NCBI GenBank assembly: GCA_026399755.1
Contig: JAPLQI010000032.1
Coordinates: forward strand, 1 to 64,000
Length of the DNA stretch: 64,000 nucleotides
DNA from: Pseudomonadota bacterium
GTDB taxonomy: Bacteria; Pseudomonadota; Gammaproteobacteria; Burkholderiales; Chitinibacteraceae
Direction: 5' to 3'
Position numbers and translations under genes: made by a program. This document shows positions 4,501-12,857 of the stretch, one piece after another. The notes under the pieces were generated by a model. It was given only the letters and a program-made list of their open reading frames with translations. It ran no database searches and was not told the origin of the DNA. The stretch's first letter is position 1. The number at the start of each line of letters is the position of its first letter.

Positions 4501-5545
4501 CCCCCGGAATGTTTAAGTTGGATACGGTAAATCCTGCCAAGCCAGCCTTAGGCTTAGAGCCACGGCCCGTTGCGCCTTCGTCGCGAATTTCACCACCCGA
4601 GCCGGTTGCGGCTCCGGCAAACGGCGAAATAGCTGTTGGGTGGTTATGCGTTTCCACCTTCATTAAAATATGCGTTTGTTCGGTGCTGAATGCGTATTCG
4701 GCGCTGCCTGCTTGTGGATAAAAGCGGCCGATTTCTGCGCCTTCAATCACCGAAGAGTTATCCGAATAAGCCACGACCGTGCCCGCTGGTGCCGCTTTAT
4801 GCGTTTCGCGAATCATGCCAAACAGGCTGTAATCTTGTTTCTCGCCATTGATAATAAAATCGGCGTTAAAAATCTTGTGGCGACAGTGCTCAGAATTAGC
4901 CTGCGCAAACATGGTCAGCTCAACGTCAGTGGGGTTACGGCCCAGCTTGTTGAAGTTTTCTACCAAGTAATCAATTTCATCATCGCTCAGTGCCAAGCCA
5001 AATTCGCTATTGGCTTTGACCAACGCGGTTTTGCCACCACCGAGGATATCGACAGTCAGAAAAGGCTTAGGCTCAAAGTGGCGGAATAAGTCACGGCCAG
5101 CCTCCAAGCTACTAAATACTTCTTCGGTCATTCTGTCGTGAATCAAGGGGAGAAGCAGGCTTTGTTCTGCTGCTGATAAGGGGCTGCCGCCTTCCTTGCT
5201 GGCGTAAATCACGACGCCGCGCTCAATACGTTGGATATTTTTCAAACCACAATGCTGAGCAATATCGGTGGCTTTCGACGACCAAGGAGAAATTGTCCCC
5301 AAGCGCGGCAATACCATAATCAGGCTACCGACGGCTAAGTCAGGCTGAGCGGGCTCGCCATAGTGCAGAATCTTGCTGAGGATGGAGTTTTCATCTTCCG
5401 TCAGCGCAGCGCTGGTTTCGGCAAAGTGCCAATACTCAGCATAAATCTGCGCGGAAATACCCTTAGCAGCGAGAGCGGCGGTCAGTTTTTCGACCCGGAA
5501 AGATGAAAGCGCGGTACCGCCGCGCAATTGGAGAACGTCAGCCAT
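1595..5545 (-). CDS. purL: Phosphoribosylformylglycinamidine synthase, large single-chain form
   Basis: PurL converts FGAR, glutamine and ATP to FGAM in purine synthesis. The protein has the full proteobacterial long-form layout: an N-terminal PurS-like domain ([15 protein letters not shown]), FGAM synthetase halves with [14 protein letters not shown] and [17 protein letters not shown], and a C-terminal class I glutaminase with the nucleophile in GVCNGCQMM and a His-Glu pair near PHPERVFR. I chose the ATG at 5545 (1316 residues). The track ORF starts at a GTG 87 bases earlier, but the added 29 residues have no counterpart in family members, which start as MxxxLRG. An Arg/Gln-rich insert ([11 protein letters not shown]) precedes [11 protein letters not shown]. 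It is monocistronic with its own terminator. Confidence 0.95.
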
Positions 5546-6099
5546 GTCTTTGATCTTTGATAGGTAAGCCTCGGGAAGTCGCAATGATACCCAAAAACGA
5601 CTCATTTCGCCTCGAATATCGGCAAAGTTCACGAACTATATGGGTGGTTTAGCAGGGCATGCTGACTTATGAAAGGAGTTTTCTTGGTTTTGCTTACTGT
5701 TAGTTTGGGGAAATATTTTAATATGCTTAAGCTGTTGTTGTGGCATAGATATGAAAGGCTGTTGATAGCGTCTTGAAAATTTAGGGATTTAACTTTCTGT
5801 ACGAATCAAAAATGCCAGATTGCTGCACGGTAAAATCAAAGGCTTATGAGTGCTTTATTTATAAAAAATTGATTGGTGCAGGGGTTGGAACATAATAATT
5901 AGAGCGTAAAAAGGGCAAAGTCATTCCGACTTTGCCCTTTTTGTTTGAAACTTAGGCGCTGATTAATTCACGTCACCAAACCCAATTAAACAGTGAGGGA
6001 TTAGCGAGTTAATTGTGCTTAAATTATTACTTTTATGAAAAATAGATATGATTACTTCAACCTACAGGGCCAGATCGACCCTACAGGAGATTTGCTTTC
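5546..6099. other. Intergenic region upstream of purL
   Basis: About 550 bases without a convincing gene. It must hold the purL promoter (minus strand), but no clear -35/-10 pair stands out. The only firm structure is the hairpin terminator at 5908-5942. Close to the receptor stop codon the octamer cctacagg occurs twice (around 6060-6085). Confidence 0.5.
5908..5942 (-). terminator. Strong bidirectional hairpin terminator
   Basis: A perfect 15-bp stem, aaaaagggcaaagtc against gactttgcccttttt, closes a 5-base loop. Poly-T follows on either strand. It lies about 160 bases past the TonB receptor stop and most likely ends that transcript. Confidence 0.9.
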
Positions 6100-8661
6100 T
6101 TAGAACGAGTACTTAACGCCAACTTGGTAAAAGGTGCCGCGTGCTGTATATAACGGAGCAAACCCAGGTGCAGAAAACGTTCCAGCGGCCACACCCGAGA
6201 ACTCAGGCATACGGTCAAATACGTTCTTCACCGCTGCATCAATCCTCAGATTTTTGATACCGGTGTAAGCCAGCGTCAGATCAACCTCGGAGTAACTAGC
6301 AACATGGGGAGCTTCTGGATCGTAGTTCGCCTTATCGTCCGGGCTGGCATTAACGTCTTGGAAGCTGGCCGTAGTACGCACAGCTGCCCCACCTGTCCAA
6401 CCGCCATGCTCTACATCGAAGCGGAAGGTATTACGCCATTGTGGCGAGCCATAGGTATCAACCCATTCTTCCATCGACCCCGTATCGTTTGATTTTTTCA
6501 AACTGACGTAATAGGTGTTGTTATTGCTGAAGGTGAATGTTGCTAGTGAAGTCGGAAAGCGCAGCTTCATATCGGTATCAATACCGACATTCTCTTGCTT
6601 GTTACGGTTTTTCTTCTTCTGCGTCATCATCCAGCCATACTCGGCGCTAGGGGCAATCTGACCTGCTTGCAGTGCTTCAAGGTATGTTTGATCAGAAATA
6701 ACATCATCTTTCTTGACCATCCACCAGTCCAGCGAGCCGCTAAATGGACCCGCCTCACCCACTATGCCTAGATTGATCGACTGACCTTTTTCGGGTTTCA
6801 GCTCAGCATTGCTACTTGTAGTGCGCTGACCATTAATGCCATTTTTCTTGCAATCAGCTAGATCGGCAGCATTCAGGTTTGGAATGTAATCACACTCTGC
6901 ATCTGTAAAGGTATGCGCGCCTTGTGATGGACCTTGATACAAATCCTGCAGCGTAGGCATGCGGAAGCTTTCGGAGTACGAAGCGCGAAACATCAGGTTT
7001 GAAATAGGCTGGAAACGTGCCGCCAAACGTGGTGAAACTTTGGAATGCCCCCCTTGGTAGCTGTCGTAACGCAATGCAGCTTGCAGCTCAAGCGATTCGA
7101 GAACCGGGGCAATAACTTCCCCAAAGATCGCTTTACCCGTGCGTGAGCCTTCGGTGACAACCTGCTTGATCGAACCATAAACTTGGTCGTTTTGCTGTAG
7201 CTGATCAGGAACGTCTGATAGCTTCTCATGCGTCAAGCTGGTGCCGACCGCAAATACAACTGCGCCACCGGCCAGTTTCAGACCCGTTTCACCGCTAATT
7301 TTGGTATCAAAAAACGCTTGTTCCAGTTTGGCTTCACGCTGAGACAAAATCTTCAGGCTATCAACCATCGATTGATTGTTGTTCATTGAAGTTGGATCAA
7401 TTTGCTGCTTAGCTAGCGCATCAAAGAACTTACCCTTATGCACCCCGCTATCACTATTTGTGTTACGGCTTACCCCATAACCCCCTGCTATGCTCCAGTC
7501 AAAATCAATAATTTGACCATCAACCCCGAGCACAACATGACTAAGCGTATTTTCTTTTTCCGAAATACGTCGCCCCGGCTGCATAAAACGACCGTTAAAG
7601 TAAACTTGCTTCGCTGGGTCGGTTGTCACCGCGCCAGTACTGTCGATCATCTGGCCATTTTTGTAATATGGCATGCCACCTGGTGCAGGGTGCCCTTCAA
7701 ATCGATCTTTGCTCTCTGTGTAGAGGTATTGAGCATAGGCCTGTGTCGTCTCGTTAAGTTTAACGCGACCGAGTAACATCAGGTTTTTGCGGTCAGCACC
7801 CGTACTTAATGTCAATACATCTTGGTTAAAGTCGTAAGCACACTGACCATTGCTCCTGAGTAACTCAGCTGGGCAGCCAGGTGCAACTTGCTGCCATTTT
7901 TTATTAATTAGAACATTGCCATAAGGAGACAAACCGCTACGAGAATCTTTGCCACCAAAACGGCGATAATCTGCTGTTTTTGAAATCTCTCGGTCTTTGG
8001 TATAAATCGGATCGCGTTTTAAAACATCAAACGATCCAAATACATTAAAGCCTTGCTCATCAAGGTCACCATAACCGCCCGTTATACCTGCTGTTTTTTC
8101 GGTGCCATCACCACGGCTGGATTGGCCAAATGAGCTGCGAATCTCACCGCCCTGATAATTTTTCTTGGTAATAAAGTTCACGACACCAGCGACTGCATCG
8201 GCGCCATAAATGGCAGAACCACCGTCCTTAAGTATGTCCACACGCTCGATGCCAGACATCGGTAGGGCGTTAATATCAAAAGATTCACCACCAGTCATCG
8301 CGTGCTTGGGCAAACGATGGCCATCCAGCAGGATCAAGGTATTACTACTGTCCAAGCCACGCATGCTGATAAATGCACTACCCGAAGCGGACGGATAGTT
8401 CGATTTTTGCTCGTAAGAATCATCAAAATCGAGGCTGGCCACGTTTTTAACGACTTCCTGTACCGTGGTTGCGGCTGTTTTTTCCAGCGCTTTACGGTTT
8501 AGTGTTTCTACTACGGCTGCACCCTCTTTCTGAATGCGCTTAATGCTTGAGCCCGTTACTTCAACACGTTGAACTTTGTTAGGAGCATCTTCTGCTGCAG
8601 CAATAGATACATAGCTGATGCTGGCAATTGCTAAGGTTAGTGCTTTTAAAGGGAATTTCAT
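6100..8661 (-). CDS. TonB-dependent outer membrane receptor
   Basis: This 853-residue protein is an outer membrane gated transporter. Residues 1-23 form a signal peptide ending SIAAA. A short TonB-box-like stretch (VQRVEVTGSSIKR) precedes a plug domain of about residues 45-165, with SMRGLDSSNTLILLDG and IERVDILKDGGSAIYGADAVAGVVNF. A 22-strand type barrel follows and ends in aromatic YSF, as expected for BAM-assembled proteins. The overall style (long plug, GSSIKR, DGHRLP) resembles the receptors that Gammaproteobacteria and Betaproteobacteria use for glycans or peptides rather than classic siderophore receptors. It is divergent from a GH20 hexosaminidase, so chitooligosaccharides are a plausible substrate. 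That is inference only. A gaggat ribosome site precedes the ATG. Confidence 0.9.
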   Translation of the reverse strand: MKFPLKALTLAIASISYVSIAAAEDAPNKVQRVEVTGSSIKRIQKEGAAVVETLNRKALEKTAATTVQEVVKNVASLDFDDSYEQKSNYPSASGSAFISMRGLDSSNTLILLDGHRLPKHAMTGGESFDINALPMSGIERVDILKDGGSAIYGADAVAGVVNFITKKNYQGGEIRSSFGQSSRGDGTEKTAGITGGYGDLDEQGFNVFGSFDVLKRDPIYTKDREISKTADYRRFGGKDSRSGLSPYGNVLINKKWQQVAPGCPAELLRSNGQCAYDFNQDVLTLSTGADRKNLMLLGRVKLNETTQAYAQYLYTESKDRFEGHPAPGGMPYYKNGQMIDSTGAVTTDPAKQVYFNGRFMQPGRRISEKENTLSHVVLGVDGQIIDFDWSIAGGYGVSRNTNSDSGVHKGKFFDALAKQQIDPTSMNNNQSMVDSLKILSQREAKLEQAFFDTKISGETGLKLAGGAVVFAVGTSLTHEKLSDVPDQLQQNDQVYGSIKQVVTEGSRTGKAIFGEVIAPVLESLELQAALRYDSYQGGHSKVSPRLAARFQPISNLMFRASYSESFRMPTLQDLYQGPSQGAHTFTDAECDYIPNLNAADLADCKKNGINGQRTTSSNAELKPEKGQSINLGIVGEAGPFSGSLDWWMVKKDDVISDQTYLEALQAGQIAPSAEYGWMMTQKKKNRNKQENVGIDTDMKLRFPTSLATFTFSNNNTYYVSLKKSNDTGSMEEWVDTYGSPQWRNTFRFDVEHGGWTGGAAVRTTASFQDVNASPDDKANYDPEAPHVASYSEVDLTLAYTGIKNLRIDAAVKNVFDRMPEFSGVAAGTFSAPGFAPLYTARGTFYQVGVKYSF

Positions 8662-9015: not shown

Positions 9016-11499
9016 ATGACGCAGCCAGCGGGTGCACATATACAGTTGAAGTGGGAATGCCTGACTAATCATTACGAGGGTGATCACTTTTTAGCCGAGC
9101 TGACGATTACTAATCTGTCGGATGTGGCTTTAAGCGGGCAAGATTGGGCGATTTATTTCAATACCTGCCGCAAGATTAAGCCAGAGACGGTGCAAGGCGG
9201 CGTGGTGATGGAGCATGTAAACGGCGACGTTTCGCGCTTTATTCCCGCAGCGGATTTTGTGGGCTTGCCTGCGGGCGCATCGATGGTGGTTCGCTATCAG
9301 GGGATTTTCTGGGTAATTAACGAAACTGATGCGCCACTGGGTTTTTATATTGTTTATGGCAATGCGGTGGCTGATGCGATTGGCGATCCGGAGATCGTGC
9401 CTTTTAGCCGCCCGGAGCAATGTAATCGTAATTTAGTAGATGCTGTGCCTTTGATGACGCCTGCATTACGCTTTGCTGAGAACCAAACACTTACGCTCTT
9501 GCCTAGCGATGCCGTTGGCAAGATTACGCCAACACCGCTCGAGGCGCGTTGGGATGCGGGTCAGTATCTGATTACGGCGGCAACTTTGATTGTGCATGGC
9601 GAAGCGCTGGCTAAAGAAGCGGCCTTTTTGCGTGCTGCTTTGTGCGATGTATCAGGCGTGGAGCTACAAAGAGCCAGCCGTGGTGCGGGCATTATCTTGC
9701 AAGTGGCTAAGGTGGATGTGCCCCAGAGTGGCGCGCCGCTAGAGGCTTATAGCTTAGAAATTAGCGCGACAGGAATTGTGATTAGCGGTGCAAGCGCGGC
9801 AGGCGTGATGAATGGGATTCAATCGCTGCGTCAGCTTTTACCCGTAGATAGCTATCTTAATCCACAGGCTAGCTTGGCCGTGCCTTTCGGCTATGTGATT
9901 GATGCACCCCGTTTTGCTTATCGCGGCATGCAGCTGGATGTGGGGCGTAATTTCTCTAGCAAGGAAACGGTGCTGCGCCTTTTAGATTGCATGGCTTTAT
10001 ATAAGCTGAATAAATTCCACTTTCATTTAACTGATGATGAAGGCTGGCGTTTAGAGATTCCATCCCTGCCCGAGTTAACCGAATTCGGTTCCTTGCGTGG
10101 CTTTAGTCCTAATGAAGAAAGTAGCTTGCTGCCAAGCTTTGGCTCGGGCGCTGTAGTGCAAGGTTCGGCGGGGACTGGTTTTTATAGCCGTGCCGATTTT
10201 ATCGAAATCTTGCAATTTGCTACCGCTCGCCATATCGAAGTAATCCCAGAGATCGACGTGCCAGGCCATGCCCGCGCCGCAATCAAGGCGATGGAATTGC
10301 GTTATGAGCGTTTAAAAGCGGCGGGCGATTTGGTGGGGGCAGAAGAATATCTGCTTAGCGATTTCAACGATCAATCTAAATATGAATCGGTGCAGCTGTG
10401 GCACGATAATGTGATGTGTATCGGCCAGGAATCTTGCTACCGCTTTATTGAAACGGTGTTGGTGGATATGAAGGCGATGTTTGCCGAGGCAGGCGCACCG
10501 CTCACCACCATGCATACCGGTGGCGATGAAGTGCCTCACGGCGCATGGGAAGGCTCGCCTGTGTGTCAGGCATTTATGCAAGAGCAGGGTATTACTTCGA
10601 TTCAGGCCTTACAAAATTATTTCCTTGCCCGTTATCGCACCCTGCTGCAAAAACATAATCTGGTATTCGGCGGCTGGGAAGAAATTGCTTTATCTAAGCA
10701 AGACGGCAAGCACGGCCCGAATCCAGAATTTGTGGATGCCAAATTCCAGCCCTATGTTTGGAATAATGTCTGGGGCTGGGGGCAGGAGGATTTTGCTTAT
10801 CAGCTTGCCAATGCAGGCTATCAAGTGGTGCTGTCGAATGTGACAAATCTGTATTTCGATTTGTCCTACGCGAAAGACCCGCAAGAGCCGGGCTATTACT
10901 GGGGGGGGGTTATTGAAACGCGCGGCGCTTATGAATTCTGCCCGTTGGATATTTACACTACCGCTACGGTTGATCTGTTTGGTAATCCGCTTAATGCGGA
11001 TAGTCTTGCCAAAATGCAGCGCCTGACGCCTGAGGGCACTAAAAATATTTTGGGAATGCAGGGCCAGCTTTGGGGCGAAAATACACGTAGCCAAGAGCGA
11101 GTTGAATACCTTGCGATGCCACGAGTGATTGCGCTGGCAGAGCGTGCTTGGGCAGCGGACCCGGGCTGGACCAAGATGAGCGACGTGGCCGCACGCTCTG
11201 CAAAAATGGATGCAGATTGGAATCAATTTGCTAACCGCTTGGGCCAGCGCGATATGCCGCGTTTGGATGGTTTTTTAGGTGGCTACGGCTACCGGATTCC
11301 CTTGCCGGGCGTACAGCGTGTGGATGGCAAGCTTGCGCTGAATATATCTGCGCCGGGCTTGGCTTTGCGTTACACCTTGGATGGCAGCGAGCCAACGGTT
11401 GAATCGGCGCTGTATACCGAGCCGTTTGCAGCAGATGGGGCCGTAAAAGTTGCAAGCTTTAGCCGTACAGGGCGTAAGAGTAAGACGGTCGTAGCTTAA
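9016..11499 (+). CDS. Beta-N-acetylhexosaminidase, GH20 (chitobiase type)
   Basis: The 827-residue enzyme should release GlcNAc from chitobiose and chitooligosaccharides. Domains in order: a CHB/HEX N-terminal carbohydrate-binding domain (about 1-155), GH20b (about 165-290), the GH20 TIM barrel from about 300 (YRGMQLDVGRNF, FHFHLTDDEGWRLEIP), and a C-terminal domain ending in the LRYTLDGSEPT motif. HTGGDEVPHG places the catalytic Asp-Glu pair at D504-E505. The length matches Vibrio and Serratia chitobiases. No signal peptide is visible at MTQPAGAHIQLKWE, so either the enzyme is cytoplasmic or it leaves by another route. A nine-G run occurs in frame inside the catalytic domain at 10901. It pairs by context with the divergent TonB receptor. 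Confidence 0.95.
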   Translation: MTQPAGAHIQLKWECLTNHYEGDHFLAELTITNLSDVALSGQDWAIYFNTCRKIKPETVQGGVVMEHVNGDVSRFIPAADFVGLPAGASMVVRYQGIFWVINETDAPLGFYIVYGNAVADAIGDPEIVPFSRPEQCNRNLVDAVPLMTPALRFAENQTLTLLPSDAVGKITPTPLEARWDAGQYLITAATLIVHGEALAKEAAFLRAALCDVSGVELQRASRGAGIILQVAKVDVPQSGAPLEAYSLEISATGIVISGASAAGVMNGIQSLRQLLPVDSYLNPQASLAVPFGYVIDAPRFAYRGMQLDVGRNFSSKETVLRLLDCMALYKLNKFHFHLTDDEGWRLEIPSLPELTEFGSLRGFSPNEESSLLPSFGSGAVVQGSAGTGFYSRADFIEILQFATARHIEVIPEIDVPGHARAAIKAMELRYERLKAAGDLVGAEEYLLSDFNDQSKYESVQLWHDNVMCIGQESCYRFIETVLVDMKAMFAEAGAPLTTMHTGGDEVPHGAWEGSPVCQAFMQEQGITSIQALQNYFLARYRTLLQKHNLVFGGWEEIALSKQDGKHGPNPEFVDAKFQPYVWNNVWGWGQEDFAYQLANAGYQVVLSNVTNLYFDLSYAKDPQEPGYYWGGVIETRGAYEFCPLDIYTTATVDLFGNPLNADSLAKMQRLTPEGTKNILGMQGQLWGENTRSQERVEYLAMPRVIALAERAWAADPGWTKMSDVAARSAKMDADWNQFANRLGQRDMPRLDGFLGGYGYRIPLPGVQRVDGKLALNISAPGLALRYTLDGSEPTVESALYTEPFAADGAVKVASFSRTGRKSKTVVA

Positions 11500-11599: not shown

Positions 11600-12733
11600 C
11601 TATTTCGCCGACGCCGCTTTCAACATCTCTTCAATCTGCTGAACAATCGCCGCTTCTTTATCTGCATCGTATTGCTTAATCGCAGGCGTATGGATATGGC
11701 CAACAGGGATTTTTACCCCGAGCTGATCGCGCAGGCGTAGGCTGCGGTAGGAAATCTCATTGGATAAATAACCGCCACCAGAGCCTTCTACCGATACTTC
11801 ATTCGCTAATGCAGCCTGATTTTTTGGGCAAAACTCTTTTTGCCGCAGGCTGCTAATGGTGCAATTTTCGTGCACGATAAACGGCGTTTGCACGGTGAGC
11901 ATATTTTTGATCGGTAGGCTGAATTCTACAAATTCTGCTCCAGCTAAGGTGCTGCCTTTGAGTTGTGGCAGCACGGGTTTGGTCAGTGTGCCGCCCGTTT
12001 TAACATTCAAATTGTCCGGAAAATCAGCCGAGCGGCGTTTGCCCGGGTAGCGCTCTAAATCAAAATCTTTGCGTCCCATGCTGACAGTCACAATTAAATC
12101 GACAGGATTTTTTAGATAGGGCGTGAGCAGGTCTTCCACAAAGCCTGCGTCAAAATCGGCAAAGCGTACGGGTGCAATGGCAGTTTCGATTTGCGCCCGC
12201 TGGCCATTTAATTCAATAAACTTACCATCAAGTAGCAGTGCGGCCAGCCCTGATGGATTACTTTGATTGATGTTTCTATCCAGTAGAAATGGGTCAAAAC
12301 CCGTGAGCAAGATGCGCCGCACACCTTGGGTGTAGCGAATATCTTGAATGCCACGGCTGTTTTGCTCAAAGAGCGCTAGCCAGCTATTACGCTGGGCAAT
12401 ATCGGCTTCAAAACCTAATTTTCCATCGCGAATTTGTTGGGTGATTGCGAGGCGAGCCCAGTAAAGCGGCCTGTCGTCCGTGGTTTGCCGCGCTTGTTGG
12501 CGAGCATCGCTCCATAGAGTATGCCCAGCACTGATCAATAAGGCATCGATTTCCGCACTGTTTTTTGCCGTGGCCAAGTTAATGCTCAACTTGCTGATTT
12601 GAGTCTCAAAAGGGGCGAGTAAATGCGGCATAGCGGCTTTGGCAGCATCTAAGCGTTTTTCTTCCACATTGGCTGCAAAGCTGGAGGCGCTAACAATCAG
12701 GCTAAGGCAGAGGCAGGCCGCTTTTAATATCAT
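11600..12733 (-). CDS. Exported pyroglutamyl-peptidase-I-like protein with Cys-to-Ser change
   Basis: I start the gene at the ATG at 12733 (377 residues), because the track start lies inside the sodB terminator and this Met opens a clean signal peptide, MILKAACLCLSLIVSASSFA. After about 135 unassigned residues comes a region like peptidase family C15: RRILLTGFDPF and NQSNPSG near residue 140, then LERY with the expected catalytic Glu (E227), GGGYLSNEISY where Pcp enzymes have YVCN, and GHIHTP with the His (H348). The expected nucleophile Cys is therefore Ser324. Family C15 enzymes are normally about 215 residues and cytoplasmic. Export, the long N-terminal extension and the Ser all suggest a changed function. 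The C15 relation is an inference from motifs. Confidence 0.7.
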   Translation of the reverse strand: MILKAACLCLSLIVSASSFAANVEEKRLDAAKAAMPHLLAPFETQISKLSINLATAKNSAEIDALLISAGHTLWSDARQQARQTTDDRPLYWARLAITQQIRDGKLGFEADIAQRNSWLALFEQNSRGIQDIRYTQGVRRILLTGFDPFLLDRNINQSNPSGLAALLLDGKFIELNGQRAQIETAIAPVRFADFDAGFVEDLLTPYLKNPVDLIVTVSMGRKDFDLERYPGKRRSADFPDNLNVKTGGTLTKPVLPQLKGSTLAGAEFVEFSLPIKNMLTVQTPFIVHENCTISSLRQKEFCPKNQAALANEVSVEGSGGGYLSNEISYRSLRLRDQLGVKIPVGHIHTPAIKQYDADKEAAIVQQIEEMLKAASAK

Positions 12734-12803
12734 TCTATTTTGTCCGGTTTGGGGGCTTGTATTGAGTGCGTAAGCATAAGCTGATCGCAATGATAGCAGG
12801 CAT

Positions 12804-12857
12804 AAAAAAACGCCTGAGCTCACATACTGTTGTATGTAAGCGCCAGACGTTTTTTAA
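12804..12857 (-). terminator. Long hairpin terminator of sodB
   Basis: A nearly continuous stem runs from aaaaaacgcctgagctcacatac to gtatgtaagcgccagacgtttttt with a small tgtt loop and a few mismatches. It has poly-A and poly-T on its two ends. It lies about 95 bases beyond the sodB stop. Confidence 0.8.

Follow-up and report, generated by a model that had tools for sequence, protein, structure and literature searches.

A branch of C15 family proteins with serine at the catalytic cysteine position and predicted export from the cell

Pyroglutamyl peptidases (Pcps) belong to MEROPS clan CF, which consists of the single family C15 and is characterized by a Glu-Cys-His triad (PMC12445089). A switch of nucleophile inside one fold is known from the Ser/Cys proteases of the PA clan, whose fold is unrelated to C15; in TEV protease the Cys-to-Ser swap costs about 1e4-fold, and a bare swap usually cripples cysteine enzymes (PMC4576821). 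C15-like domains have also been noted among polymorphic toxins and PVC secretion systems, as a probable component of the toxin (PMC3482391), in one sentence that does not give the Ser/Cys identity. An ORF called 'peptidase C15' that adjoins blaOXA-48-like genes in Shewanella is a member of the family analyzed here; in the parts of the two reports that name it, it is a flank marker only, and neither serine nor export is mentioned (PMC3480492, PMC9604219). Some Streptomyces members are named 'pyroglutamyl peptidase' by automatic annotation. Our literature search found no paper on a Ser-type C15 protein, a C15 nucleophile switch or an exported bacterial Pcp, and no published statement of the Ser change and export in this branch, which has earlier appeared only as the Shewanella ORF and under automatic annotation.

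We analyzed a C15-like gene in a 64,000-nucleotide stretch of DNA, referred to below as the window. The features discussed are as follows.

11600..12733, minus strand: coding sequence of a Ser-type C15 protein of 377 aa, predicted to be exported (ORF, congener orthologues, dN/dS)
12674..12733, minus strand: putative signal peptide, residues 1-20, cleavage near SSFA/AN (hydrophobic N-terminus, low-confidence model tail)
12341..12667, minus strand: helical N-terminal domain, residues 23-131 (pLDDT > 93, modelled whole and alone)
11606..12322, minus strand: C15 (pyroglutamyl peptidase) fold, residues 138-376 (PF01470, Foldseek)
12053..12055, minus strand: codon of Glu227, catalytic Glu position (Glu in 110/111 of the family and 24/24 ordinary Pcps)
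11762..11764, minus strand: codon of Ser324 (TCC), catalytic Cys position (Ser in 111/111 of the family, Cys in 24/24 ordinary Pcps)
11696..11698, minus strand: codon of His346, branch-specific invariant residue (His in 65/65, Phe in 24/24 ordinary Pcps)
11690..11692, minus strand: codon of His348, catalytic His position (His in 110/110 of the family and 24/24 ordinary Pcps)

The reading frame opens with ATG at 12733 and ends with a stop codon at 11602-11600. Full-length orthologues, 86-93% identical, are present in seven of the eight other Iodobacter species, and the nearest named public record is Iodobacter sp. BJB302 (90% match, full length); the window's own genome thus appears to belong to Iodobacter. 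The gene occupies an equivalent site in the congeners, with a GH20 hexosaminidase gene on one side and sodB on the other, and the neighbours are syntenic. Across the genus dN/dS is mostly 0.06-0.09, which demonstrates that purifying selection acts on the gene. A decaying copy or a sequencing artefact was ruled out, since the frames are open genus-wide and dN/dS is near 0.07. The neighbouring GH20 hexosaminidase of the window (9016-11499, 827 aa) carries carbohydrate-binding domains, and its predicted start, MTQPAGAH..., is without a signal peptide. Scans for promoters and terminators at the C15-like gene gave no signal exceeding chance; an imperfect inverted repeat with A- and T-runs in the sodB/C15 intergenic region (12800-12855) is terminator-like by eye and was missed by the terminator scan.

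An earlier note on this DNA had proposed a C15 fold, with a structure model lacking C15 similarity as the outcome that would speak against it. PF01470 (Peptidase_C15) matched the window protein with E=1.2e-8 and 35.6 bits against a cut-off of 22.7, and it matched all 56 relatives scanned, with E up to 0.01. The AlphaFold model built on a 56-row alignment had a mean pLDDT of 94.3 and a pTM of 0.91; when it was compared with the PDB by Foldseek, the best 34 matches were all Pcp with probability 1.00 (best E about 2e-12, TM up to 0.78 by target length). The window protein is thus a C15 member by homology. It scores far below the cut-offs of the equivalog models, with 25.7 bits against 201.75 for TIGR00504 and 32.4 against 199 for NF009676 (pyroglutamyl-peptidase I). 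In the model Glu227 and His348 end their strands (224-227 and 344-349, respectively) and Ser324 stands at the start of helix 323-338, a placement which we take to be that expected for the Pcp triad.

Relatives were collected by a genome-contig scan with an alignment of ten relatives, which gave at least 304 relatives, of which 80 loci were kept; one of the two patterns used contained the Ser motif. Loci found without that motif were also all Ser: those in 13 genomes from a profile search of 399 whole genomes, those of the genus and order relatives, and those found by tblastn on plasmids. A larger unbiased class-level sample yielded two genomes only, both already in the set. Ordinary Pcps for comparison were the 24 readable sequences from a PF01470 search of 299 genomes of the phylum.

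The catalytic motif of the window protein reads GSGGGYLSNE. In the alignment with the ordinary Pcps S324 falls on Cys, E227 on Glu and H348 on His in each of the 24, and in a profile alignment S324 falls on residue 142 of P. furiosus Pcp, which carries a laboratory Cys-to-Ser mutation in the crystal entries concerned. All 111 aligned loci, a few of them duplicate retrievals of a gene, have Ser at position 324; position 227 is Glu in all of them except the Tenacibaculum locus, which has Asp, and positions 346 and 348 are both His in the 110 loci extending to those columns. A catalytic Cys elsewhere in the window protein was ruled out, as it has no other aligned Cys. The earlier observation that Ser replaces Cys while Glu and His are kept is upheld, and of the residues that define a C15 cysteine peptidase in MEROPS the window protein has the Glu and the His and lacks the Cys. 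The codons for Ser324 belong to the TCN class in 109 cases and to AGY in two, indicating that serine was held through a change of codon class.

The fold, the Glu-nucleophile-His order and the GF-PF and N-P-S/T motifs are alike in this branch and in ordinary Pcps, which have in common GF-PF (146-149), N159, D240 (60/65), N325 and P350. What sets the Ser branch apart in sequence is the Ser for Cys, an extra N-terminal domain, predicted to be helical, and the export signal. Besides C324S, four further fixed differences separate ordinary Pcps from the Ser branch, G216T, A218S, A319G and F346H, and E326 and R330 are invariant in the Ser branch only; the change of nucleophile was thus accompanied by a remodelled site, around which S218, E326, R330 and H346 form the branch's own invariant polar residues.

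The earlier note had left open whether the protein is an inactive binder or a serine hydrolase. Of these two the sequences favour the serine hydrolase, because all three residues, Ser, Glu and His, persist jointly in at least 110 highly divergent sequences, and because both Ser codon classes and the branch-specific invariant polar residues occur. The window protein is probably a functional serine enzyme whose site of action lies outside the cytoplasm, not a dead copy. The cost of a bare swap in other cysteine enzymes is, by analogy, a counterpoint to this. Loss of the Cys is moreover a classic mark of non-peptidase homologues, and the kept GF-PF pocket residues could hold a ligand without catalysis, as in an extracytoplasmic binder of pyroglutamyl or other peptides serving, for example, sensing or transport; yet dead homologues usually lose both Glu and His, which are kept here in effectively every member, and the recurrent neighbours of Ser-C15 genes show no linked transporter, so such a binder appears unlikely. 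Replacement of the acyl-enzyme chemistry by a metal site formed by HxH 346/348 together with a Glu or Asp has in its favour that HxH is invariant and that strand residues two apart face one side. This we regard as very improbable: the Pcp triad already accounts for His348 and Glu227, a third invariant metal ligand is not evident, and the invariance of Ser324 would be needless. If Ser324 is catalytic, as we consider probable, cysteine is not the sole nucleophile of clan CF. The clan would then include a natural switch from Cys to Ser that is old and widespread, with relatives on either side of it and a clean phylogeny, so that the way in which enzymes exchange their nucleophile could be tested in both directions on natural sequences.

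As to export, the window protein begins with a plausible Sec-type signal peptide, MILKAACLCLSLIVSASSFA/AN, with a hydrophobicity of 2.46 against 1.74 for the 95th percentile of internal windows; by the same measure 81 of 110 Ser-C15 members exceed 2.0, and a Sec signal peptide or lipobox is found in most members. The signal peptide pattern in this protein and most relatives agrees with the export previously suggested. The exceptions are a Pseudomonadales/K189A MAG clade (L077-L080, L086, L091), whose shorter proteins leave no space for a signal, and the Tenacibaculum protein, which is encoded in a type VI secretion cluster. Just upstream of three of the signal-less genes, in gammaproteobacterial MAGs, lies a PF00144 serine hydrolase gene (L077 4663-5901, L080 4707-5936, L091 3600-4835). 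The Iodobacter proteins have two cysteines, C292 and C303 (window 11825-11860), in a branch-specific loop; they could form a disulfide, which would be consistent with export.

The stretch of about 135 unassigned residues that the earlier note placed ahead of the C15 fold is shorter, about 115 residues counted from the signal peptide. It forms a confidently modelled helical domain of about 110 residues, with a pLDDT of 93.9 when modelled by itself, and has no match to Pfam, PDB sequences or PDB folds. Among the aligned loci it always accompanies the Ser-type C15 domain. It contains the invariant W74 and the motif DDRxLYWxR (86-94), whose residues D86, D87, R88, L90, W92 and R94 match the triad in invariance, and this suggests that the domain takes part in substrate handling.

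The hosts of the Ser branch are Iodobacter, marine gammaproteobacteria, Burkholderiales, Streptomyces, Kribbella, Tsukamurella and Tenacibaculum, with Actinomycetota and Bacteroidota sampled by the motif-based scan and plasmids only. The phylogeny of the long forms, listed earlier as a check, was computed with the S/C column removed and separates the Ser branch from the Cys branch of ordinary Pcps with 100% SH-aLRT. The window gene lies within a 36-row clade that is nearly all marine gammaproteobacteria (98% support), whereas sequences from the window's own family and order (L009, L010) fall among homologues of Burkholderiales and actinobacteria. Given this placement, the simplest reading of the tree is that the window gene was acquired by transfer from a marine gammaproteobacterium. 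A phage or viral origin was rejected, there being no match in phages, IMG/VR or BFVD. The plasmid pOXA436 carries, adjoining blaOXA-436, a homologue that has the Ser motif and shares about 46% identity with the window protein. If the Ser is catalytic, the function considered below is also proposed for an ORF that on a clinical plasmid travels with the OXA-436 carbapenemase gene and that in Shewanella lies beside blaOXA-48-like genes.

In the mechanism that we prefer, a C15-fold enzyme would have switched its nucleophile from Cys to Ser and would be exported by Sec to the periplasm or beyond. There Ser324, activated by His348 and Glu227, would attack the amide beside an N-terminal pyroglutamyl or similar lactam cap, an acyl-enzyme would form, and the deblocked peptide would be released for uptake or further digestion. 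Judging from the invariance of its DDRxLYWxR residues, the N-terminal domain probably lies over the active site and restricts or chooses the substrates. As a speculation, Ser may suit an oxidising compartment outside the cell better than Cys. Extracytoplasmic deblocking of pyroglutamyl proteins could possibly serve nutrition or act against other bacteria.

Glutaminyl cyclase makes N-terminal pyroglutamate, and Pcp removes it. In two Pseudomonadales MAGs a glutaminyl cyclase gene lies directly upstream of the Ser-C15 gene, in one with an ATGA overlap (L078, 5213-6957; PF05096, E=4.3e-86) and in the other with a 51 bp gap (L079, about 4966-6966), which ties the family to N-terminal pyroglutamate. 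In both MAGs a signal peptide is present on the cyclase and apparently lacking from the C15 protein. Across the 399 genomes strong cyclase matches were found in 1 of 13 with the long form and in 18 of 386 others, no excess over chance, and glutaminyl cyclase is absent from the window's genome. A genome-wide link is not supported, the linkage being local and confined to these two MAGs.

Activity of the Ser enzyme on pyroglutamyl-like caps or close analogues has, on these data, about an even chance; the lack of genome-wide cyclase co-occurrence and of a signal peptide in the cyclase-coupled members counts against it, and the substrate may be another because the pocket differs from that of ordinary Pcp (G216T, A218S, A319G, F346H). 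That the substrate is strictly a pyroglutamyl-peptide is possible but somewhat doubtful. An active Ser acyl-enzyme hydrolase or acyltransferase with a substrate that is not pyroglutamyl-like, such as a cell-wall peptide or ester, would fit the invariant T216, S218, E326, R330 and H346 near the site, the new N-terminal domain, the member in a type VI secretion cluster and the PF00144 neighbours (L077, L080, L091). We consider it rather unlikely, as the phenylalanines of the pocket persist along with the overall fold, the genes of two members are coupled to one for glutaminyl cyclase, and Foldseek gave no fold match to cell-wall enzymes.

In a plasmid-borne type VI secretion cluster of Tenacibaculum finnmarkense (L017, 4302-6612) the C15 domain makes up the C-terminal portion of a protein of 594 aa. 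Its gene is flanked on one side by a VgrG-like gene and on the other by an ORF of 186 aa that has a signal peptide, and the cluster also holds tssR, TssD and a DUF4280 gene. By its cluster, VgrG neighbour and immunity-like partner it has the context of a putative type VI effector, comparable with the toxin-associated C15-like domains mentioned above, by description only; the window protein has neither this setting (its neighbours are GH20, SodB and CobD/CbiB) nor the lack of a signal peptide. In Bacteroidota pyroglutamate is the first residue of most exported proteins (the Q-rule), and Porphyromonas gingivalis has glutaminyl cyclase as an essential enzyme (PMC10653852, PMC5837995), so that a periplasmic pyroglutamyl peptidase would be a plausible weapon against Bacteroidota. 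The combined proposal, that the Ser branch are extracytoplasmic pyroglutamyl peptidases and that the Tenacibaculum form is a weapon decapping periplasmic proteins of rival Bacteroidota, seems to us quite improbable. The immunity-like partner, with predicted cleavage at ...CYA/QASW, itself appears to be a Q-rule export. In the record of a second T. finnmarkense strain (L142, 7274-9586) the effector reading frame is broken.
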